This document shows, one piece after another, positions 647 through 9,540 of a stretch of 11,036 nucleotides of DNA. The notes beneath the pieces are model-generated. The model had not been told where the DNA came from. It saw only the letters and a program-made list of their open reading frames with translations, and searched no databases. The stretch covers positions 1 through 11,036 of the forward strand of contig JAQTWS010000009.1 in the NCBI GenBank assembly GCA_028689175.1. Direction: 5' to 3'. This DNA is from Minisyncoccota bacterium (lineage in GTDB: Bacteria; Patescibacteriota; Minisyncoccia; Minisyncoccales; Minisyncoccaceae). Numbering within the stretch: the first letter of the stretch is position 1; each line of letters starts with the position of its first letter. A program made the position numbers and the translations under genes.

Positions 647-659
647 TTTTTTAGAATAA

Positions 660-1475
660 ATGAATAAAAATCAAAAAAAGATTTGTTTTATATTTATCTT
701 TACTATTGTTTTGATTTTAATTTTTTGGCAAATAACAAAAAAACCCTTACCTAATAATGATTGGCCAGAAACATATGCTACTTTAGCGGAGACTGAAATT
801 AATGAGAATATAGCGCATATTAAAAATGTTAGAAATTTCCGTTATAATTCTGACGAAACTGTTGACCTAGTTGATTATTATGATAAAAGCTATGATTTAA
901 ATAAATTAAAAAAGGTTTGGTTTATTTTTGAGCCATTTAGTATCGCTGCCCATACTTTTTTAAGTTTTGAATTTGAAAACGATGTTTTTTTGACAGTTAG
1001 CATTGAGGCTAGAACTAATAAGAAACAAAAATATAATGCTTATGTTGGACTTTTTAGATCGTACCATTTAATTTATGTTATTTCTGACGAAAGAGATTCA
1101 TTTTTCGTTCGCACTAATATTCGTAATAATCAGGTTAATCTTTACCCAATGAACCTTTCTCAAGAACAGGGGAAAAAATTATTGTTAAATTTATTGGAGG
1201 AGGCTAACGAATTAAGGAATAATCCAAAATGGTACAATACACTTACAGCCAATTGCACAAATCTTCTTTTTAGTCATTTAAATTGTGTTTTAGAAGAGCC
1301 GATACACTATTCGTGGAAAATGCTTTTTACTGGATTTTCTGATGAGTTAATTTTTGACAAAAATTTAATTAGTCTAAAAAAAGAAAAAAACAAATATGAT
1401 ATTACAAAAAAATCAAGAGAAATTGGCAATGTGGAAAGCTATTCATTATTAATAAGGGAGGGTATAAATGATTAA
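660..1475 (+). CDS. DUF4105 (Lnb N-terminal periplasmic domain-like) protein
   Basis: A 271-residue protein with an N-terminal membrane anchor (about residues 8-24, after a Lys-rich start) followed by an extracytoplasmic domain. The domain matches the DUF4105 pattern in order: NDWPETYATLAETE (33-46), KNVRNFRYNSD (55-65), AAHTFLSFEF (96-105) with His98, S.E.R (114-118), the Y...G.FR.Y.LIYV..DERD segment (126-146), R.N......LYP (151-163), and NPKWYNTLTANCTN (188-201) with Cys199. The conserved His and Cys suggest a cysteine-hydrolase-like site, but the family's biochemical role is not established to my knowledge. It is probably cotranscribed with the spermidine-synthase-like gene 13 bp upstream. 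There is no Shine-Dalgarno sequence. Its stop codon overlaps the stop of the convergent gene by a few bases. The family call is confident and the function is unknown. Confidence 0.83.
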   Translation: MNKNQKKICFIFIFTIVLILIFWQITKKPLPNNDWPETYATLAETEINENIAHIKNVRNFRYNSDETVDLVDYYDKSYDLNKLKKVWFIFEPFSIAAHTFLSFEFENDVFLTVSIEARTNKKQKYNAYVGLFRSYHLIYVISDERDSFFVRTNIRNNQVNLYPMNLSQEQGKKLLLNLLEEANELRNNPKWYNTLTANCTNLLFSHLNCVLEEPIHYSWKMLFTGFSDELIFDKNLISLKKEKNKYDITKKSREIGNVESYSLLIREGIND

Positions 1476-1891
1476 ATAATATTTTTGTTATTATAACATT
1501 TAATTTCTTTTCTTATCTTGTAGGCATCATCTATATCCCTAATTTTCCAACCGCCAACCTCTAATAGTTTCTTATAAATTTCTTTTTTACTCATATTTGC
1601 GGCTTCGCATGAGTTAATATATGAAATAATTTTTTTCTGCGAAATAGAAAGATTTTTAATGTTTATTTTAAATATTTTTATTAATATTTTATTTACAAAT
1701 GACATTACTGCAAAAAACAAGGCGATGATGGGTATAAGTGTCAACCCTGCTGTGCAGATAATTAAAAGCATTAATGATTGTATAATATTTAAAATATCTA
1801 AACTTCCGTAAAGAATACATAAAACAATGCAGAAGATAATTAAGGTAATGATAAAAGAGAGAAAAGATGTTGATAAGATTTTTTGATTCAT
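1472..1891 (-). CDS. Small membrane protein with CPR-type C-terminal helical domain
   Basis: A 139-residue protein of unknown function. Residues 8-28 and 36-66 are strongly hydrophobic, giving two or three membrane segments. Residues 68-79 are basic. The soluble C-terminal domain (about 84-130) reads ISYINSCEAANMSKKEIYKKL followed by L.VGGWKIRDIDDAYKI. Patescibacterial proteins often carry a similar short module (YI....G.s.eeI...L...GW...di..Af) next to membrane segments, and I base the domain call on that resemblance. It starts 4 bp after the upstream membrane gene stops, so it is the last gene of the minus-strand operon led by the radical SAM gene. Its 3' end overlaps that of the convergent DUF4105 gene by 4 bp. 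The reading frame looks real; no function can be given. Confidence 0.7.
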   Translation of the reverse strand: MNQKILSTSFLSFIITLIIFCIVLCILYGSLDILNIIQSLMLLIICTAGLTLIPIIALFFAVMSFVNKILIKIFKINIKNLSISQKKIISYINSCEAANMSKKEIYKKLLEVGGWKIRDIDDAYKIRKEIKCYNNKNII

Positions 1892-1895
1892 ATAG

Positions 1896-2957
1896 TTATT
1901 TTTTTTGGTTTACTAAGAATATAATATAAGTAATAAAAGGTAGAATAATTAAAAGATAAAACGCTGATCCAAAGAATATTTCAAGAGGCATATTTAGCGC
2001 TTCAATGGTGAGTCCTGAAAAATTATTTACCGTTGCTTCATTATATACTCTCATACCTTTATTTATAAGAAAAACTTCAAGGAAAAAAATTGGAACAATT
2101 GATATTCCGAAGTAAAGAATAAATTTTTTAAAGATATCATGATATCCCAAATATTTATCAATCAAAGTTACAGATGTCCAAATTAGAATTGCTCCGATGA
2201 ATGTGAGCTCTATAGAGACATTATCAATTATATATGACCAATCACACCAGCCGATATTAGTTACCATTGTTCTTGTCATAATATCAAAAGATAAAATTCC
2301 TAAAAAGCAGATTAAAAATGAGATTAAGTTATTGTTTTTAACAGGAATAATTATTTTGTTATCAATTTTTAAATTCCAATATTTGTAAAATGACATTACA
2401 AAAAGTGAAATGATGGCACTGTAATAAATAGGAAATAAGGCAATTGCTCTTTGTGAAAATGCTTCTAGGGTTTCTTCTGAAAATACTCTTATGTCTAAAT
2501 GAATCATAATAAATTCTAAAAAAAGAGCAAAAAAAGACAATATTAGCGTTGATAGCAAAAAATTTTTAATAGAATATTTTTTAAAAAATTTATTAGCCAG
2601 ATAATCCGCCCAAAGAATAAAGGTTGCCCAAGTCGTGCTTATTATCCAGCTTGTTTTTATATATATGTAAGCCCATGAACCTAGTTTTATAGCGCTAAAT
2701 AACGAAGCTGTAAACATTTGAAAAAGAGTAAAAATAATAAATCCTATAAACCATCTTATAATTATTTTATTTTGATGTTTTTTAAGATAAAAAAACGATC
2801 CAATGGTAAATAAAATTAGAATAACTTCAAGTAACACAATTTCTGGAGTTGTAATTTTATCAAATACATGAAAGTTGTTGTGCACTTCAACAAGATTTGC
2901 AAAAAAATCTGATAAAGCCATATCGTGGATATTAGCCATTAATTCTTTTGGTGTCAT
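1896..2957 (-). CDS. Internally duplicated polytopic membrane protein, weakly lycopene-cyclase-like
   Basis: A 353-residue protein with about eight hydrophobic segments. It is built from a repeat of roughly 145 residues. Residues 93-168 align with 238-314: each has W.Y.., then an I-L/I-W segment, then FLEF or FLEV, then a D/G-x-R-V-F/Y-x-E-x-T...FS motif (155-168 and 301-314). The hydrophobic segments starting near 38, 175 and 324 also resemble each other (TPEIVLLE, FPIYYSAI, MPLEIFFG). The first two are followed by similar loops ending NKIII. Paired three-helix repeats with P-x-E-E at a helix start recall the lycopene cyclase (CrtYcd/CarRA) and CruF-type carotenoid families. That link is weak and inferred, and copy 2 of the P-x-E motif is lost. 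The ATG overlaps the stop of the radical SAM gene as ATGA, indicating translational coupling. An isoprenoid-related role would fit the neighbouring lipid genes. Confidence 0.65.
   Translation of the reverse strand: MTPKELMANIHDMALSDFFANLVEVHNNFHVFDKITTPEIVLLEVILILFTIGSFFYLKKHQNKIIIRWFIGFIIFTLFQMFTASLFSAIKLGSWAYIYIKTSWIISTTWATFILWADYLANKFFKKYSIKNFLLSTLILSFFALFLEFIMIHLDIRVFSEETLEAFSQRAIALFPIYYSAIISLFVMSFYKYWNLKIDNKIIIPVKNNNLISFLICFLGILSFDIMTRTMVTNIGWCDWSYIIDNVSIELTFIGAILIWTSVTLIDKYLGYHDIFKKFILYFGISIVPIFFLEVFLINKGMRVYNEATVNNFSGLTIEALNMPLEIFFGSAFYLLIILPFITYIIFLVNQKK
2016..2246 (-). repeat. Internal protein-level repeat, copy 2
   Basis: Encodes residues 238-314 of the duplicated membrane protein: CDWSYIID, then an LIW helix, then FFLEVF and the GMRVYNEATVNNFS tail, matching copy 1 position by position in its signature residues. 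It is followed by MPLEIFFG, the copy that best keeps the P-x-E helix start. Confidence 0.6.
2454..2681 (-). repeat. Internal protein-level repeat, copy 1
   Basis: Encodes residues 93-168 of the duplicated membrane protein: GSWAYIYI, then an ILW helix, then ALFLEF and the DIRVFSEETLEAFS tail. It aligns with copy 2 (residues 238-314) over its full length with only short gaps. The similarity is at protein level, and I do not see long DNA identity, so the duplication is old. Confidence 0.6.
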
Positions 2958-4111
2958 ATATTTATTTTATTAAATTTATCTTTTGATATATATTTATCAT
3001 TAATTATTTTTTTGTCTTTTAGTCTGCATCCGCCATATTTAGTATGTTTAAATATTAGTCTCATTTTTTCTAATATTTCGTAAAGAGGGGTTTCTCTAAC
3101 ATTGCCAAAAACAGCATGATTAAAATCACATGGACAAACTTCTCCAAAGGGGTTTATGTAAAAATAATTTACTCCGCCAGAACAGCCAATGCTTCTATGA
3201 GAGGAGGTGTAACCATATATTAAAATACCAGGATAGTCATAAGATTTATTATATTTATTAGAAAATTCTATAAGTTCGTCTATAAAGACATGATCATCTG
3301 CTAAATCTTGTCTTTCTGCGTATTTTCCCGATGGATTAGCTCCAAAAACTAAAACTTCATGAACTCCCTTTTTCTTAGCAAGTTCAACGATTCCATGAAG
3401 TTCTCCATTTTTAAAAGACTTTGGTGTTACGCAGGATGATATGCCGACAGTTAAACCAGTTTTTTTGGCACTTTCAATTCCTTCCATGGCTTTTTCAAAT
3501 AAATTATCTATCTTTCTAAATTTGTCATGTTTTTTAGCTTTAGCAGAGTCAATACTTACATAAACTCCATCTAATCCAGAATTTTTTAACTTTTTTGCAT
3601 TTTGGCTCAGATAATATCCGTTTGTAAATAAAATAGCAGTTGATAAGTTTTTATCAACCGAACTAATTATTTCAAAAATGTCAGGATTTAATAAAGGCTC
3701 TCCTCCAACAATATTTATCACAGTAACGCCAGCTTCTTGAGCATCTTTTATGATCTTAAAATATTCTTGTTTTTTTAATGGATTTTTCTTTTCATTTAAG
3801 TCTTTTGTATGAAAGCTACAATGTTCACAACTGGCATTACATTTTTCTGTAATAGCTAAACTCATTAAATTGTGATTCGTCCTGCCAGTTATATTTTTAT
3901 AGAAGTTTCTGGCCATAAAATTAGCTGCTGCATTTGAAAAGAGTGCTGGGGTTGATAAAGAAAAAACGGGGCAGCCGTCTCTAAAGTGTATAATTTTGCT
4001 ATGGTTTAAATAAATTTTATATGTATTACTAGTAAAAAAATCTGCATACGATCTGCCTTTTCTTAAAAATGAAATATAAAATTTTAATCGTAGGGTTAGT
4101 TTTCTAAACAT
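2954..4111 (-). CDS. Radical SAM protein with SPASM/twitch-like C-terminal cysteines
   Basis: A 385-residue radical SAM enzyme. The [4Fe-4S]/AdoMet motif is C91-x3-C95-x2-C98 (CNASCEHC), preceded by LAITEKC. GGEPLLNPDI (136-145) is the AdoMet-binding GGEP motif; TNGYYL (163-168) and the GLDGVYVSID strand (179-188) continue the barrel. The C-terminal part has further cysteines: C310 in IGCSGG, C326 and C328 in INPFGEVCPCDF, and C362 in YGGCRLKD. The surrounding text (YINPFGEVCPC, then FGNVRE.PL.EI) is SPASM-like, so an auxiliary Fe-S cluster is likely. A basic N-terminal extension of about 80 residues precedes the core. The substrate is unknown; SPASM proteins often modify peptides, but some radical SAM enzymes act on lipids. 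It is the first gene of the minus-strand operon, is coupled by ATGA to the duplicated membrane protein, and lies 30 bp from the divergent lipid operon. Confidence 0.88.
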   Translation of the reverse strand: MFRKLTLRLKFYISFLRKGRSYADFFTSNTYKIYLNHSKIIHFRDGCPVFSLSTPALFSNAAANFMARNFYKNITGRTNHNLMSLAITEKCNASCEHCSFHTKDLNEKKNPLKKQEYFKIIKDAQEAGVTVINIVGGEPLLNPDIFEIISSVDKNLSTAILFTNGYYLSQNAKKLKNSGLDGVYVSIDSAKAKKHDKFRKIDNLFEKAMEGIESAKKTGLTVGISSCVTPKSFKNGELHGIVELAKKKGVHEVLVFGANPSGKYAERQDLADDHVFIDELIEFSNKYNKSYDYPGILIYGYTSSHRSIGCSGGVNYFYINPFGEVCPCDFNHAVFGNVRETPLYEILEKMRLIFKHTKYGGCRLKDKKIINDKYISKDKFNKINI

Positions 4112-4141
4112 GCTTTTTATGTTATTATATAATATAATATC
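4112..4141. promoter_or_regulatory. Bidirectional promoter with a shared palindromic -10 region
   Basis: The whole intergenic space between the divergent radical SAM and UbiA-type genes is 30 bp. It contains ATTATATAAT (4124-4133), a perfect palindrome that gives a consensus TATAAT on the plus strand (4128-4133) and on the minus strand (4129 down to 4124). A second plus-strand TATAAT lies at 4133-4138. The distance from the first plus box to ATG 4142 is 8 nt; from the minus box to the ATG at 4111 it is 12 nt. No good -35 box is visible on either side. Transcripts would have no leader or a very short one. The call rests on sequence only. Confidence 0.55.
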
Positions 4142-4999
4142 ATGAATAAAATAAAAAGGAAAGATTTATTTTTATACATAAAAGAAAGGTTTCCGATTTT
4201 TGCTGCGCTATTTTTTTCATTGTTAGTTTTAACTTCAATAAATCTCTATATTTTTAATAAAATAAATGTTAATACATCTTTTTTTATATGCATTGCTTTG
4301 TTGCTTCTATTTCTTTTTAGGATTAGGCTAATGGATGATGTGAAAGATTTTAAATACGATGTTGTTTTTCATAAAGATAGGGCTGTGCAAAGAGGTGTAA
4401 TGTCAATTGCACAACTTAAGAAATTATTGTTTATAGTTTTATTATTAGAAATAATTCTGCAATTATTTCTGCCTCAGTTTGCTATATATTTTTATCTTTT
4501 TTTAATATTTTATTCTTTTTTAATGCATAAAGATTTTTTTAGCGGAGGTTTTTTTAAAAATCATTTTTTTGTCTATATATTATTGCATCAAATTATTTTC
4601 GCTTTTTATATTTATTATTATTTTTGTATTTTTCAAAATAAAATAGTGTTTTTGGGCATAAAAGATGTCTTGTTTGTATTTTTTTTATTTTTAACTATGT
4701 ATATTTACGAAATATCAAGGAAAATGAATCATAGATATGACGATAATAATAAGAAAACGGACGATACATATATTTATAAATGGGGGAGGAGAAATGTTTT
4801 ATCTCTCTTATTTTTATTTATTTTGATTCAAATTTTTTGCTTACTTTTTATTTTTAGAAGCATTAATTTGTTTTTATTAATGTATGTTGCATTATTGATT
4901 ATTGGGATTTTTTACTCTAAGATTAATAAAAAAGAAAGCTATTTTATTCTTATGATTATTTTTAGTTTATCAACATTTATAAGTTATTATTTTATATGA
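4142..4999 (+). CDS. UbiA-family prenyltransferase-like membrane protein
   Basis: A 285-residue protein with eight or nine hydrophobic segments, typical of the UbiA superfamily, which transfers a prenyl chain from a polyprenyl diphosphate to an aromatic, haem or glycerol-phosphate acceptor in the membrane. The first Asp-rich motif is at 65-73, DDVKDFKYD. This is the family's NDxxDxxxD with Asp for Asn, and it is followed by HKDRAVQRGVMS (77-88), the usual H..RP...G..S segment. The second conserved region is YEISRKMNHRYDD (189-201), then DDTYIYKWGRRN (207-218), matching the E..RK...........TY....G subgroup. The second aspartate cluster is looser than in classical UbiA. This is the first gene of the five-gene operon, and its stop overlaps the next start as ATGA. 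The acceptor cannot be told from sequence. The lipid neighbours make a role like DGGGP synthase (glycerol-phosphate acceptor) possible but unproven. Confidence 0.75.
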   Translation: MNKIKRKDLFLYIKERFPIFAALFFSLLVLTSINLYIFNKINVNTSFFICIALLLLFLFRIRLMDDVKDFKYDVVFHKDRAVQRGVMSIAQLKKLLFIVLLLEIILQLFLPQFAIYFYLFLIFYSFLMHKDFFSGGFFKNHFFVYILLHQIIFAFYIYYYFCIFQNKIVFLGIKDVLFVFFLFLTMYIYEISRKMNHRYDDNNKKTDDTYIYKWGRRNVLSLLFLFILIQIFCLLFIFRSINLFLLMYVALLIIGIFYSKINKKESYFILMIIFSLSTFISYYFI

Positions 5000-7320
5000 A
5001 AAATATAGGAAACAAGGCTAAAAATTTAATATGGTTAAAGGAAAACGGTTTTCCCATTCCTGATTTTTTAATAGTAGATCCGCGCGATATTATTGCTAAT
5101 TATGATGAAATAAAAAATTGTTCAGACTTGAGTTCTGTAAAATGGATTGAAGAAAATATAGATAAATATTTAAAATTTAAAGGAAAAGAAGTTGCTTTTA
5201 GAACTTCTTCATTTTTAGAAGATACTGAAAAACATTCCTTTGCCGGACTATATGAGACTTTTTTAAATATTACGCTAACTAAAAATAATTTTAAAAAATA
5301 TATTTTTCTGTGTATAAGAGGATTATTTTCTGAAAAAGTAATTTCTTATTTTAAAATTAATAATTTTGACACTAGCAAGTTGGGGTGTTCAATTATTATT
5401 CAGGAGATGTTTTATCCAACATTTTCTGGTGTGGCTTTTATGTATGAAAAAGATAAGGATTCTAAGTTGGTTTACAGTAAAGGGTTTTGTAAAAAAATTG
5501 TTGATGGCGGGAATGCTAATTCTGTGCAAATTGATAATATTTCAGATGATTTTAAAAGTATAAATTATTCCAAAGAACTTTTAGATTGCCTAAAAAAAGT
5601 TTATAAGCTAAAGGGTTGTCCGCAAGACATAGAATGGGGAATTTCAGATAAATATTTTTGTTTTTTACAGACAAGAAATATTACAAAAGATATTATTTTT
5701 AGAGATGAGAAATTTGAAATATATGATTGCACCAATATATCAGAAAGCTATCCAGGCATAACGCTTCCATTAACATATTCTTTTATTAATTATTTGTATT
5801 CTAAAGTTTATATATCATTTTTATCAATTTTTGGGATTAGAGGTGTGATCAGATATAAAGATGTTTTTGATAATATGCTTGGATATATTGATGGAAGAGT
5901 TTATTATAATATAGCAAATTGGTATAATTTTTTAAAAATTTTACCTGGATATAAATATAATAAAGAATTTTTTGAGGCAATGCTTGTGCCTAAAAAAAAT
6001 ATTAAAAGCGAGAAAGAAAAGAAATTTAAAACTCCTTTTTTTATTAATTTTTTTATTTTAGTTAAGCTTTTTTTTAAATTGTTTTTCTATAAAAATGATC
6101 ATCAAGAATTTATAAAAAAATTTAATCATAAATACGAACAGCACAAAGAAAAAAATTTAAGCAAAATGTCTAATAAGGACATCTTTAATTATTATGAAAG
6201 ATTAAGAGATAGTTTTTTGGATGATTGGAAAATTCCCATTATGAATGATTTCAGATTAATGGTTTTTCACGGCTTGCTTAAAAAAATTTCTAGAGAAGAT
6301 ACTTTAAACGAAATGATGTCTGGCTTTGCAAAAGATCAATATTTTGAAATAATTAGAGAAATTAGTAAACTTTCGTCTATTGTTAATTGTAATAACGAAT
6401 TAAAAAGTATTTTTTCACAAAAAGATAATAAAAAAATATACGATGGTATTATGAAAGGCGATGGTGTGGATATTGTAAATTTTAGAGAAAAGTTGCATTT
6501 TTATCTTAATAATTTTTATTACAGAAGACCTGGAGAGTTAAAGTTAGAAAGCGATGATATTGGCGATAATCCGGAAATGATTATAAGTCTTATAAAAAGT
6601 TATCCAAAAGAGATAAAAAATAAAAAGAAAAAATTAAAAATAAGCAATCCTTTCATTAGATTGATTGCAGAAAAGACAAGAGATGCTATAAGAAATAGAG
6701 AAATTTTTAGAGCAAAAAGAGCCATGGTTTTCGGCGTCGCAAAAGATTGTTTCATAACCATAGCCCATAACTTTAAAAGCTCTGATATAATAGAGGAAAA
6801 AAAAGACATCTTTTTTTTAAACACAGAGGAGATTAAAAGTATTATAAATAGAAACACAGCGGATAATTATTATAAAGAATTAATAAAACAAAGAAAAAGA
6901 AAGATTGATGAATACAAATTTGTGATTTGGCCAGATAGAATTAAAATTTATGAATATGGCAAAAAAAGAGTTGTACTTGACGATACAATAGAAATAAAGG
7001 ATAATTTAAAAGGATTGCCTGTGTCTCAAGGAGTTTTTAGAGGAAGAGCTTTAGTATTGGAAAAATTTAGAACAGATGTTGATTACAAAGACAAAATATT
7101 GGTTACGTATCAAACAGATCCCGGGTGGTCAATTGTTTTTCCTCTTTTAAAAGGAGTTATATTGGAAAGAGGCAATACTTTATCTCATGCATCCATATTA
7201 AGCAGAGAAATGGAGATCCCTTCTATTGTTAAAGTTAAAAATGCTGTTTCTATGCTTAAGGATGGTCAATTAATTGAATTAAATGGAAATAATGGAGAAA
7301 TTAAAATTATTAAAGAATAA
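4996..7320 (+). CDS. Rifampin-phosphotransferase/PEP-synthase-like phosphotransferase
   Basis: A 774-residue protein with the three-part architecture of the PPDK/PEPS/RPH superfamily. The N-terminal ATP-grasp half (about 1-230) shows GNKAKNL.WLKENGFPIP (5-22), VAFRTSSFLEDTE..SFAGLYETFLN (66-91), QEMFYPTFSGVAF (136-148) and PQDIEWG...YFCFLQTRNIT (209-230). The middle (about 240-660) contains a TLPLT segment, RRPGELKLESDD (510-521) and KKDIFFLNTEEI (602-613), as in rifampin phosphotransferases. The C-terminal swivelling domain has LPVSQGVFRGRALV (674-687) and GNTLSHASILSREMEIPSIV (726-745) with catalytic His731. There is no PEP-binding TIM barrel, so it is not a true PEP synthase. The expected chemistry is ATP to AMP plus phosphate with one phosphoryl moved via His to an unknown acceptor. 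A hydrophobic stretch at 346-366 could touch the membrane. It is coupled by ATGA to the UbiA-type gene. The family is certain and the substrate unknown. Confidence 0.88.
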   Translation: MKNIGNKAKNLIWLKENGFPIPDFLIVDPRDIIANYDEIKNCSDLSSVKWIEENIDKYLKFKGKEVAFRTSSFLEDTEKHSFAGLYETFLNITLTKNNFKKYIFLCIRGLFSEKVISYFKINNFDTSKLGCSIIIQEMFYPTFSGVAFMYEKDKDSKLVYSKGFCKKIVDGGNANSVQIDNISDDFKSINYSKELLDCLKKVYKLKGCPQDIEWGISDKYFCFLQTRNITKDIIFRDEKFEIYDCTNISESYPGITLPLTYSFINYLYSKVYISFLSIFGIRGVIRYKDVFDNMLGYIDGRVYYNIANWYNFLKILPGYKYNKEFFEAMLVPKKNIKSEKEKKFKTPFFINFFILVKLFFKLFFYKNDHQEFIKKFNHKYEQHKEKNLSKMSNKDIFNYYERLRDSFLDDWKIPIMNDFRLMVFHGLLKKISREDTLNEMMSGFAKDQYFEIIREISKLSSIVNCNNELKSIFSQKDNKKIYDGIMKGDGVDIVNFREKLHFYLNNFYYRRPGELKLESDDIGDNPEMIISLIKSYPKEIKNKKKKLKISNPFIRLIAEKTRDAIRNREIFRAKRAMVFGVAKDCFITIAHNFKSSDIIEEKKDIFFLNTEEIKSIINRNTADNYYKELIKQRKRKIDEYKFVIWPDRIKIYEYGKKRVVLDDTIEIKDNLKGLPVSQGVFRGRALVLEKFRTDVDYKDKILVTYQTDPGWSIVFPLLKGVILERGNTLSHASILSREMEIPSIVKVKNAVSMLKDGQLIELNGNNGEIKIIKE

Positions 7321-7882
7321 TACAGCTAATATAATATCTTTATTGATAGTTCCCAATAGTCTAATTTCTTTTTATTTTATTTTTAAAGAAGAAGTATTTT
7401 TAGCTTTTTTATTCATAATTATATGTTTTTTTCTAGATACTATAGACGGATATATTGCAAGAAAAATGAAAATTGAAAGCAGTATGGGGCAAGCAATAGA
7501 TTCGTTTTGCGACTTGATTGTTTATCTGATGTTCCCGGTTTTTTTTATTTTTAATTACTTAAATTTTAATTTATTTGTAACTTTTTTTATTTGTTCCATC
7601 GTTTTAATTTCTGGAATTATTAAATTAGCTCGCTTTTCTAAAGAGGGTTTTGTGATTATTAATAATGAAAAATATTATAGAGGATTGGTGGTGCCGTTTG
7701 TGTTATTAACAACTGCTATTTTTTATATTTTAAACATCAATAATTTTATTTATATTAATATATTATTTCCTTTAGCTGTAATTTTAATATCCATATTAAT
7801 GGTATCTAATCTAAAATTTAAAAAAATCAGCAATTTTGCTTGGTATGCTCTTGCTATTTTATTATTATGGATGATTTATTAA
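7292..7882 (+). CDS. CDP-alcohol phosphatidyltransferase, PssA-like
   Basis: A 196-residue membrane enzyme that displaces CMP from a CDP-activated lipid with an alcohol. The full family signature is present: D49-x2-D52-G53-x2-A56-R57-x8-G66-x3-D70-x3-D74 (DTIDGYIAR...GQAIDSFCD). Downstream, IIKLARFSKEGF (109-120) and YYRGLVVPF (128-136) match the RLARFN and F.GLPVP segments of phosphatidylserine/archaetidylserine synthases, so serine is the likeliest head group. An in-frame ATG also exists at 7283. I prefer 7292 because it gives the usual short polar lead (MEKLKLLKNNTANIIS) before the first helix and a smaller overlap (29 bp) with the phosphotransferase gene. No phosphatidylserine decarboxylase is in view. 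Its substrate could be the product of the carS-like enzyme encoded nearby. The family is firm and the head group inferred. Confidence 0.88.
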   Translation: MEKLKLLKNNTANIISLLIVPNSLISFYFIFKEEVFLAFLFIIICFFLDTIDGYIARKMKIESSMGQAIDSFCDLIVYLMFPVFFIFNYLNFNLFVTFFICSIVLISGIIKLARFSKEGFVIINNEKYYRGLVVPFVLLTTAIFYILNINNFIYINILFPLAVILISILMVSNLKFKKISNFAWYALAILLLWMIY

Positions 7883-8367
7883 TTAAAAATTATTTTTCAG
7901 AAAGTGAAAAAGAAAATATTATTAAACATGTGTATGAAGTTTTAGAACGAGAAAAAGATTTATCCAAAAGATCTTTTAAGGAATTAGATAATTTTATTGA
8001 AAAAAAAGAATTATACTGCCTTTATAAAGATAAAAAAATCATAGGGTTTATTTTAAAAAGTAAATTAAGTAGCAAAATGATGGAAATTCAGGGTCTTTAT
8101 ATAGATCCGAAATTTAGAGAACGGGGTTATTCTCTTTTTTTAATGAATGAGGTAATAAAGAATAATAATTTTAGATATATAGGAGTTACTTTTAATCCTA
8201 AGGTTAAAAAAAGATTGATTTGTATAAAATTTAAGGAAACTTCCTTTAATTCTTTAAGATTGATAGAAAAAGTAAATTTTTTAATATCTAGATTAAGTAG
8301 GCATAGAATGCTTGAGATGAGAAGACACTTTAAAGAAAAGAAAAAAATATCAATTTTTATAAAATGA
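7867..8367 (+). CDS. GNAT-fold acetyltransferase-like protein
   Basis: A 166-residue protein with a GNAT pattern: a beta strand ELYCLYKDKKIIGFIL (48-63), a second strand MMEIQGLYIDP (71-81), then the acetyl-CoA loop FRERGYSLFLMNEVI (83-97), i.e. R-x-x-G-x-S where the consensus is Q/R-x-x-G-x-G/A. The C-terminal third (about 130-166) is rich in Arg and Lys. I chose ATG 7867, which overlaps the preceding gene by 16 bp. The longer in-frame start at 7840 would add nine residues (MVCSCYFII) that only continue the previous gene's coding sequence. Its stop overlaps the next start as ATGA. The acceptor is unknown. Its place between two lipid enzymes allows N-acylation of an amino head group or regulation by lysine acetylation, but neither can be supported from sequence. 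Confidence 0.68.
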   Translation: MDDLLIKNYFSESEKENIIKHVYEVLEREKDLSKRSFKELDNFIEKKELYCLYKDKKIIGFILKSKLSSKMMEIQGLYIDPKFRERGYSLFLMNEVIKNNNFRYIGVTFNPKVKKRLICIKFKETSFNSLRLIEKVNFLISRLSRHRMLEMRRHFKEKKKISIFIK

Positions 8368-8957
8368 ATTTATTATTTTTTATAATTTTATTTATATCTT
8401 TTATCTTTATTTTCTTATTAGAAATAATAAAAAGATATTTTAATATAAAATCAATTTATACAAGAAGGGCTGCTCATATTTTCTTTTTTATAATTATTTT
8501 AATTAGTTATTTTACGATAAGCATTCAAGAAGCTTTAATAATACTTTCTATTTTTTTTATCATATTTTGTCTTTCTTATAGATTTTATATATTATCTTCC
8601 ATTCATATAAAAGAATTTCTAACTTATGGCGAAATTATTTATATAATAAGCTTTATACTCCTTTTTATTTTTTGGGGAAATAATCCCTATGTTTTTGTAA
8701 GCGCATCCTTTATTTTGGGTTTTCTTGATCCAATAAGCGCTTTTTTTAATAAATCAAATAAGAGATGTTTTAAATATAATTTAAAATACCTAGCTTTGTG
8801 TTTTTTAATTCTTTCTTTAATTGCTTTTTATTACAAAGAATTTGTTTTTTTAAAAATTTTAATGATTGCATTAACATCAGCCATAATTGATCGTTATTCT
8901 GATTACGGATTAGATAATATTACCACGCCTATGGCTGTGGCTTTATTCCTATCTTAA
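8364..8957 (+). CDS. Dolichol/phytol kinase-like CTP-dependent prenol kinase (SEC59/VTE5-type)
   Basis: A 197-residue membrane protein with about six helices. Family motifs are seen in order: YTRRAAHI (32-39), which corresponds to the R-K-..H-I near the N-terminus; ASFILGFLDPISAFFNKSNK (114-133), matching the A.G.GD..A...G segment with LD in place of GD; and ALTSAIIDRYSDYGLDNITT (169-188), matching the E..s..G.DN..iP signature near the C-terminus. Relatives transfer phosphate from CTP to dolichol, phytol or geranylgeraniol; distant relatives in the cytidylyltransferase superfamily make CDP-lipids. The usual K-[ST]-x-E-G-S segment in the middle is not recognisable, and the stretch at 134-150 is RCFKYNL plus hydrophobic residues. 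The family call is therefore good but activity is less sure. This is the last gene of the plus operon, and its final 29 bp overlap the convergent carS-like gene. Confidence 0.72.
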   Translation: MNLLFFIILFISFIFIFLLEIIKRYFNIKSIYTRRAAHIFFFIIILISYFTISIQEALIILSIFFIIFCLSYRFYILSSIHIKEFLTYGEIIYIISFILLFIFWGNNPYVFVSASFILGFLDPISAFFNKSNKRCFKYNLKYLALCFLILSLIAFYYKEFVFLKILMIALTSAIIDRYSDYGLDNITTPMAVALFLS

Positions 8958-9468
8958 ACAATAGAAAATCAGTTGATAAATGTATGGCTGATCCTAAAAT
9001 TAAAATTCCAATCAAATAAGTTAGATCTATTTGATAAAATAAAACTAAGCAAAAACAGCAAGAGACAATAGAGTCAATGTTGTCTAAAACAAGAAATATT
9101 GTTTTTTTTGGGTTTTTTTCTGCTTTTTTCCCAGGAGGAATAGAGCATCTTCTCTTTATAAATGAATTAGGAAGTTCGCCCAAAGAATATGAGAATCCTA
9201 AAATAAGAGATTTATGCAAATTGCCTATTTTATATAGTTCATTTGCTTCGCCTACTAAAAAATAAAGAATTGATGTGACAATTAGGCAAAAAACAGGCAT
9301 TAGAATAAATCCTCTAAATGTTTTATTTTTTCCAAAAATATTTTTATTAAAATCTATAGGATTGTTTAAAATTTTAAAATAATTTTTTTTTAAAACAATA
9401 ATAAATAGAATGCCAGAAAGGAGTATTGGAAGAGTATATAAAAAACATTGACTACAATAATGCAACAT
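8929..9468 (-). CDS. CDP-archaeol synthase (CarS)-like CTP:lipid cytidylyltransferase
   Basis: A 179-residue protein with about five membrane helices. CarS enzymes convert 2,3-di-O-geranylgeranylglyceryl phosphate plus CTP into CDP-archaeol at the membrane. Seen in order: NPIDFNKNIFGKNKTFRGF (36-54), the P-x-D...G..KT..G segment; GFSYSLGELPNSFIKRR (91-107), whose SFIKRR is diagnostic; SIPPGKKA (109-116); FLVLDNIDSI (125-134), corresponding to the LDQ.D segment; and IHLSTDFLLFKIGIKPQP at the C-terminus (H....N...GLK..P in the family). The GELPNSFIKRR...PPG variant looks like the bacterial rather than archaeal branch, as far as I recall. It is convergent with the prenol-kinase-like gene and has its own extended -10 promoter. 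Its substrate may be an isoprenoid or another phospholipid. The family is firm and the substrate inferred. Confidence 0.85.
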   Translation of the reverse strand: MLHYCSQCFLYTLPILLSGILFIIVLKKNYFKILNNPIDFNKNIFGKNKTFRGFILMPVFCLIVTSILYFLVGEANELYKIGNLHKSLILGFSYSLGELPNSFIKRRCSIPPGKKAEKNPKKTIFLVLDNIDSIVSCCFCLVLFYQIDLTYLIGILILGSAIHLSTDFLLFKIGIKPQP

Positions 9469-9474
9469 ATTTTT

Positions 9475-9483
9475 ATTATAGCA
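9475..9483 (-). promoter_or_regulatory. Extended -10 promoter of the carS-like gene
   Basis: On the minus strand the sequence reads TGCTATAAT, a perfect extended -10 (TGn-TATAAT). Six nucleotides separate it from the ATG at 9468, so transcription would begin at or next to the start codon. No convincing -35 box is present, which extended -10 promoters can tolerate. Confidence 0.55.
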
Positions 9484-9506
9484 TATAGTTATAGGATTTG
9501 TGTTTG

Positions 9507-9534
9507 TTGATTAATTCTCTATTTTGTATATAAT
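9507..9534 (+). promoter_or_regulatory. secA promoter with leaderless geometry
   Basis: TTGATT (9507-9512) and TATAAT (9529-9534) are separated by 16 bp, a good match to a housekeeping sigma factor promoter. TATAAT lies 6 nt before the ATG at 9541, so the transcript would start at the initiation codon. There is no Shine-Dalgarno sequence. The promoter diverges from that of the carS-like gene within a 72-bp intergenic region. Confidence 0.6.
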
Positions 9535-9540
9535 AAGTTT

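Follow-up and report, generated by a model that had tools for sequence, protein, structure and literature searches.

A conserved six-gene module between speE and secA in a Minisyncoccota genome as a candidate phospholipid-type locus

The window analyzed here is the whole of contig JAQTWS010000009.1 (11,036 bp) from a Minisyncoccota bacterium whose 586-kb genome is estimated to be 94% complete and 5.45% contaminated. Between speE and secA it carries six adjacent genes, F-G-H-I-J-K, with K on the opposite strand, for a UbiA-superfamily membrane transferase, a dikinase, a cytidine diphosphate (CDP)-alcohol phosphotransferase, a GNAT acyl/acetyltransferase, a putative lipid-alcohol kinase and a CarS-like CDP-lipid synthase (Table 1). 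We give slightly better than even odds (about 0.52) to the reading that this block is a laterally acquired phospholipid-type module, in which J, K and H would produce a lipid-phosphoserine and F, G and I would build or modify its hydrophobic part. An earlier, sequence-only reading had proposed a lipid gene cluster at this place; the block is real, although that reading named neither the dikinase nor the GNAT, and its family for J was not borne out by profiles. Its central idea, that one locus is given over to a lipid-type product which K activates with CDP and H provides with a head group, is supported, the gene order being conserved in distant genomes.

We found the module, or a rearranged form of it, in seven genomes: the window genome (G000), G432 (locus L033), G433 (L034, Komeilibacteria), G434 (L035, Gottesmanbacteria), G072 (L044), G300 (L045) and G123 (L046), L034 and L035 being the two carriers named as members of the candidate phyla radiation (CPR). 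Its small genome and the named relatives of the module's genes suggest that the window's own lineage is CPR as well. The window shares one arrangement of all six genes, in order and in orientation, with L033, L034, L035 and L044, at 24–47% identity (tblastn), I being conserved in place in these four. L045 and L046 also have F, G, H and K together with a GNAT-type gene, but arranged differently, those of L046 identified by tblastn for F, G, H and K and by Pfam and motif for the GNAT and a J-like gene. L045 (2146–12458) comprises CarS, PEPS1, PssA, phosphatidylserine decarboxylase (PF02666, 157.3 bits), UbiA (417.6 bits to PRK13592, whose cut-off is 443), PEPS2, a low-scoring GNAT and an AMP-binding ligase. 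Because 7/7 loci with H and K also contain F, G and a GNAT-type gene, the latter three would be expected to make or modify the lipid.

The distribution of the module is scattered. A UbiA-alignment pattern scan of GTDB genome contigs gave 44 matches, of which three were true relatives (L033, L034 and L035), and a scan of the window's phylum with UbiA profile A1 matched 8 of 379 genomes, four of which carry the module or its rearranged form (G000, G072, G300 and G123). Around the matches in G381 and G116, stretches of 14 kb and 11 kb contained no window gene at E 1e-3; the matches in G157 and G203 were weak, and their neighborhoods were left out. The sequence-only reading had made conservation of gene order in relatives its test, and the outcome is split: the UbiA gene is found in 0/59 of the closest other relatives searched, but the order is kept in distant genomes. 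Equal contig sizes among the F and G protein matches suggest that at least four further metagenome contigs (10,466, 10,127, 10,320 and 40,102 bp) carry both genes. Plasmid records gave no match for the J of L044 or the K of L045 and one distant UbiA match, and viral contigs gave none. Homologues of the L045 UbiA at 72–74% identity, among the matches listed, include named Clostridia, Ruminococcaceae and Lachnospiraceae (P0192, P0219, P0251); the L045 cluster, with this Clostridia-like UbiA in a genome of the window's phylum, possibly reflects transfer between Clostridia and CPR.

H has the complete CDP-alcohol phosphotransferase signature, DxxDGxxARx8GxxxDxxxD, at residues 52–77; its nearest family is phosphatidylserine (PS) synthase, and its best structures by profile are 7pow/7b1k. 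The decarboxylase of L045 is an indirect hint that its substrate may be serine. K carries the CarS motifs GxNKTxxG, KR and DxxD as GKNKTFRG, FIKRR and DxxDS, exceeds the PF01864 cut-off (45.4 against 22 bits) and matches ApCarS (5guf) by profile at E 4e-4. J presumably resembles prenol kinases by motif. By profile it had no match among PDB sequences at E up to 10, Foldseek gave no significant PDB match, and profile comparison of J as a possible homologue of K returned nothing.

F exceeds the Pfam cut-off of the UbiA family (PF01040, 37.3 against 34.2 bits). With the deeper profile A8, its only significant solved relative is MjDGGGPS (6m31, E 5.9e-7), an archaeal digeranylgeranylglyceryl phosphate (DGGGP) synthase; with the first profile, A1, the same match was not significant (E 0.14). 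We aligned the family in 136 rows (7 loci, 9 relatives and 120 of the 2,263 matches listed, with the L045 protein present twice). The first Asp motif, D65-D66-V-K-D69-xxx-D73, is intact, with D65, D69 and D73 invariant and the pattern D[DE]x[KR]DxxxD in 136/136 rows. UbiA prenyltransferases are defined by a second Asp motif, DxxxD. This motif is missing from the C-terminal half in 134/136 rows (15/16 locus-type rows, the window included, and 119/120 PRK13592-type rows), and we thus rejected F as a DGGGP synthase, even though that is its nearest solved relative. Near the usual position of the second motif, E190-xx-R193-K194 is invariant (136/136), and an acidic residue at position 200 is kept in 131/136 rows; in the A8 alignment, R193 pairs with an Arg of the DGGGP synthase and K194 with a Glu, neither with its Asp residues. 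The mycobacterial enzyme Rv3806c, a phosphoribosyltransferase of UbiA fold, holds the pyrophosphate with lysines of helical bundle 2, at the place where other UbiA enzymes require a second Mg2+ (PMC10994848). Because basic residues replace the second Mg2+ site there, loss of the second Asp site in F may, by analogy, signal a changed donor. A UbiA-like gene described in PMC12419801 lies in a different neighborhood from this module.

G combines an ATP-grasp domain, a central substrate domain and a phospho-His swivel domain (His731). Listeria Rph structures match it by profile at about 250 bits, with profile positions 258–486, most of the central substrate region, giving no alignment with Rph. 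Residues K7, R69, E213, Q225, R227 and H731 are conserved; we take their catalytic roles to be those of Rph. At L035 10831–12519 and L044 5859–7559, a short G without any of the N-terminal ATP-grasp domain lies directly after ubiA and keeps the central and phospho-His domains. No lone ATP-grasp partner for this short form was seen in G434 and G072, each of which has one further PPDK_N protein of phosphoenolpyruvate (PEP)-synthase size.

In the pathway we favor, J would phosphorylate a lipid alcohol with cytidine triphosphate (CTP), K would convert the lipid phosphate to a CDP-lipid, and H would exchange cytidine monophosphate for L-serine to give the lipid-phosphoserine, which the decarboxylase of the variant locus L045 would carry on to an ethanolamine form. 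F with its UbiA fold, G as an ATP-dependent His-phosphotransfer dikinase and I as a GNAT would act earlier, on the hydrophobic part, with G probably phosphorylating or activating a substrate hydroxyl. The tail could be prenyl, acyl or something else, and the reactions and the order of the steps are predicted from sequence. In L045, an extra dikinase stands between CarS and PssA and J was not found by tblastn, which would fit dikinase and J being interchangeable as suppliers of the lipid phosphate. A bolder extension, which we put forward tentatively and would not back at even odds, is that the product belongs to an undescribed serine- or ethanolamine-headed lipid class, its tail being put together by a transferase of UbiA fold whose second metal site has been rebuilt, in concert with a His-phosphotransfer dikinase and a GNAT, and that the pathway is shared by scattered CPR lineages, and perhaps by gut Clostridia via an L045-type cluster, having spread by lateral transfer.

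Several results weigh against this pathway. Four of its enzymes fall short of the cut-offs of their best NCBIfam models: H scores below the NCBIfam cut-offs of pssA (71.4 against 107 bits) and NF038087 (76.3 against 240), K below that of the CDP-archaeol synthase PRK04032 (64.9 against 148) and G below that of rifampin phosphotransferase (164.4 against 999), and the best NCBIfam model score of F is also under its cut-off. The assignment of J draws on motifs and a marginal CdsA fold match, no Pfam or NCBIfam profile confirming its family, and J was not found in L045. The GNAT of L045 scores 20.0 bits where Pfam sets its cut-off at 20.7, and the GNATs of L045 and L046 gave no tblastn match to I. 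Among 127 aligned G sequences (8 from loci and 119 of the 120 listed among 467 matches), the ATP-grasp domain is missing only in L035 and L044, and this short G without an ATP-grasp partner fits poorly with an obligatory ATP-driven kinase.

The carriers show a sparse background of lipid genes. Some of their genomes are incomplete (G123 is at 78%) or of unstated completeness, which bears on every "only copy" count given here. The locus copy is the only CDP-alcohol phosphotransferase (PF01066) in G072, G123, G432 and G434, making H the only one detected in 4/7 carriers, with two copies in each of G000, G300 and G433. For CarS-like PF01864, only the locus copy was found in G300, G432, G433, G434 and G072, the fused copy of G123 being missed by the model, and a CTP_transf_1 match that is not CarS-like occurs only in G300 among 10 genomes. 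K, in its fused form in G123, is the only CDP-lipid synthase detected in 5/7 carriers (G072, G123, G432, G433 and G434). In those carriers, no CDP-lipid route was thus detected outside the locus. PlsC (PF01553) was found in 1/10 genomes (G434), in a search that did not catch the fused domain of G123. On the isoprenoid side, geranylgeranylglyceryl phosphate (GGGP) synthase (PF01884) was detected in 0/7 carriers, not all of them complete, with four archaeal controls positive; trans-prenyl synthase (PF00348) was detected in 1/7 (G123) with 14/14 controls positive. Neither turned up in the window genome, where the sequence-only reading had directed a search for both. UppS (PF01255) is present in 6/7 carriers, the exception being G072, in which neither PF00348 nor UppS was found.

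In the window's genus, a CarS-like gene lies directly beside the gene for PlsY, the bacterial glycerol 3-phosphate (G3P) acyltransferase, in 6/6 genomes, G000 included (L087–L092); the PlsY of G001 scores 177 bits against a cut-off of 137.2. K is therefore not a marker of archaeal lipids, and CarS-like enzymes in the genus probably serve a bacterial-type G3P pathway as CDP-diacylglycerol-type synthases. The PlsY-linked K paralogue of G001, at 112.8 bits, is likewise below the PRK04032 cut-off of 148. Elsewhere in the window genome (L058 3–1988, contig C17), we noted an inositol-3-phosphate-synthase-like gene (422.6 bits, cut-off 638) and, one small gene later, a CDP-alcohol phosphotransferase resembling phosphatidylinositol-phosphate/archaetidylinositol-phosphate synthases (136.2 bits, cut-off 180); an inositol phospholipid route is likely in this genome.

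These results bear on three other ways of reading the locus. In the first, J would phosphorylate host diacylglycerol as a CTP-dependent, Dgk1-like kinase, K would make CDP-diacylglycerol and H would turn this into PS, with F, G and I serving something separate. The PlsY linkage in the genus makes a bacterial G3P lipid role feasible for a CarS-like enzyme, with PlsC not found in 9/10 genomes phosphatidate would have to come from elsewhere, and lipidomics of a CPR-rich size fraction (PMC7242380) reported only acylglycerols, 22/72 of them lysolipids. However, genes that travel with H and K in every locus are unlikely to be bystanders, and K is just 27% identical to the PlsY-linked copy (113 residues). 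We regard this salvage of acyl lipids as unlikely, if still a serious competitor. For F alone, one could suppose that it is no prenyltransferase but a Rv3806c-like enzyme, with one Mg2+ at the first Asp motif plus basic residues, that takes a group other than prenyl off a diphosphate donor and attaches it to a lipid. The invariance of the first motif and of E-xx-R-K, the pyrophosphate-contacting lysines that stand in for the second Mg2+ in Rv3806c (PMC10994848) and the poor supply of prenyl diphosphate in the carriers would all suit such an enzyme. Yet F members match prenyltransferase models (PRK13592, and in L045 and L046 also PRK12882/12883, ChlG and EboC), no phosphoribosyltransferase model matched at the thresholds used, R193 and K194 do not align with Asp residues of the DGGGP synthase, and the acidic residue 200 is nearly always retained; we consider a non-prenyl donor the most doubtful of the three.

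The sequence-only reading had favored an archaeal-like prenyl ether lipid, in which J, perhaps with G, phosphorylates a salvaged prenol, F prenylates a glycerol phosphate-type acceptor, and K and H add the head group. The one significant solved relative of F and the likeness of J to prenol kinases, presumed from its motifs, speak for it, as does UppS, whose presence in most carriers means that some isoprenoid chemistry exists. Salvage through a CTP-dependent prenol kinase and a prenyl-phosphate kinase is an established scheme (PMC10849223, PMC9782597), and prenol salvage by J, then perhaps G, is possible. By contrast, the failure to detect GGGP synthase in any carrier and trans-prenyl synthase in more than one, the failure to find either PF00348 or UppS in G072, the missing second Asp motif of F and the CarS-like genes beside PlsY all count against it, and we rate this lipid as improbable. 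Of the claim that the enzymes are archaeal in type, the kinship of F with an archaeal DGGGP synthase survives, but K no longer contributes. The archaeal reading loses most of its support, and the broader lipid-module reading gains.

The block itself is conspicuous at the junction. In four same-genus genomes (G001, G002, G004 and G005), speE adjoins secA with 7–51 bp between tblastn ends, whereas the window has 8.9 kb extra at this point. A fifth, G003, gave no SecA match, and family-level G006, G009 and G016 have secA without a speE match in the stretch examined, so that the adjacency is known within the genus only. Contamination as the source of the contig is ruled out by the SecA at its right end, which is 86–87% identical to SecA of four same-genus genomes, despite the 5.45% estimate. 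The extra block is probably a lateral gain, which we favor over loss in relatives because its distribution is scattered. Composition is not decisive, since the guanine-cytosine content of G and K (26%) equals that of speE (26%); F, H, I and J are at 21–22% and secA at 31.5%. Flanking repeats were considered as insertion marks and set aside as short, AT-rich and chance-like.

Compared with known systems, the module resembles the archaeal polar lipid pathway (GGGP synthase, DGGGP synthase, CarS and archaetidylserine synthase) in the structural kinship of F, the CarS-like K and the archaetidylserine-synthase-like H; it differs in adding a dikinase and a GNAT, in a window genome without detected GGGP or trans-prenyl synthase, in the degenerate second Asp motif of F and in the PlsY association of CarS-like genes in the genus. 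With the bacterial PssA/Psd branch it shares a PS-synthase-like H and, in L045, a phosphatidylserine decarboxylase, but it uses a CarS-like enzyme in place of CdsA and is tied to UbiA, dikinase and GNAT genes. G has the domain order and key residues of Rph/PigC/RedH-type dikinases, but most of its central region does not align with Rph, two loci lack the ATP-grasp domain, and the setting is one of lipid genes and not antibiotic resistance. Villanueva et al. (PMC7852524) describe GGGP and DGGGP synthase genes from FCB bacteria and from a single genome of the Parcubacteria, likewise archaeal-like lipid genes in bacteria including one CPR genome; there, GGGP synthase is present and CarS was not detected in Cloacimonetes genomes, whereas here the reverse holds. 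On the source of membrane lipids in CPR bacteria, Probst et al. (PMC7242380) report no complete known lipid pathway in 675 CPR genomes and suggest neighbors as the lipid source. Listings of open-licence PMC papers on this gene combination or on CPR lipids contained no account of the module. It offers a concrete, expressible target, being a compact and probably transferable unit whose CDP-lipid synthase and head-group transferase are, in several carriers, the only ones detected. The changed second metal site of this UbiA subfamily and a dikinase without ATP-grasp in two loci raise enzymological questions of their own.

Table 1. Features of the 11,036-bp window
Feature	Description	Position	Strand	Evidence
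A	speE-like	2-646
B	Lnb_N	between A and C, inside 647..9540
C	small membrane protein	1472..1891	-	syntenic homologue in L033, 30% identity, E 7e-7
D	membrane protein, 353 aa	1896..2957	-	syntenic homologue in L033, 36% identity
E	radical SAM/SPASM, divergent from F	2954..4111	-	PF04055 85 bits, SPASM 32 bits
F	UbiA-superfamily membrane transferase, 285 aa	4142..4999	+	PF01040 37.3 bits
G	Rph/PEP-synthase-like dikinase, 774 aa	4996..7320	+	PF01326 90 bits, PF00391 65.7 bits
H	CDP-alcohol phosphotransferase, PS/archaetidylserine synthase type	7283..7882	+	PF01066 57.1 bits
I	GNAT acyl/acetyltransferase, 175 aa, TTG start uncertain	7840..8367	+	PF00583 28.3 bits
J	SEC59/VTE5/Dgk1-like putative CTP-dependent lipid-alcohol kinase, 197 aa, 8 predicted helices	8364..8957	+
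K	CarS-like CDP-lipid synthase, 179 aa, convergent to J	8929..9468	-	PF01864 45.4 bits
secA		from 9541
Probable inserted block	genes B-K, between speE and secA	647..9540

Outside the six genes, E adjoins the module at about 50% identity in L033 and again in L034, where the contig ends within the gene, and C and D are syntenic with it in L033. D matched no Pfam or NCBIfam family above its cut-off; its P-x-E-like repeats recall, to our eye, lycopene-cyclase-type proteins, a presumed resemblance with no family match. A conserved 253–277-aa protein that belongs to no Pfam family lies near ubiA in 4/7 loci (L034 8032–8835, L035 9091–9924, L044 4025–4858 and L046 10365–11126). By eye it suggested an SCP2-type lipid carrier, which was left unconfirmed by weak Pfam matches of single members and PDB E values of 0.012 and 0.018, and its model (predicted local distance difference test score 56.5) was too poor to use. 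In L033 (7049–8239), a fatty-acyl-reductase-like protein (NAD_binding_4, 121.5 bits) stands between the radical SAM gene and ubiA. In L046 (11193–13655), CarS is joined in one protein with a domain that weakly resembles PlsC (PF01553 at E 0.028, short of the cut-off), and after this fusion come a gene of the Coq4 family (PF05019, 45 bits) and then UppS.

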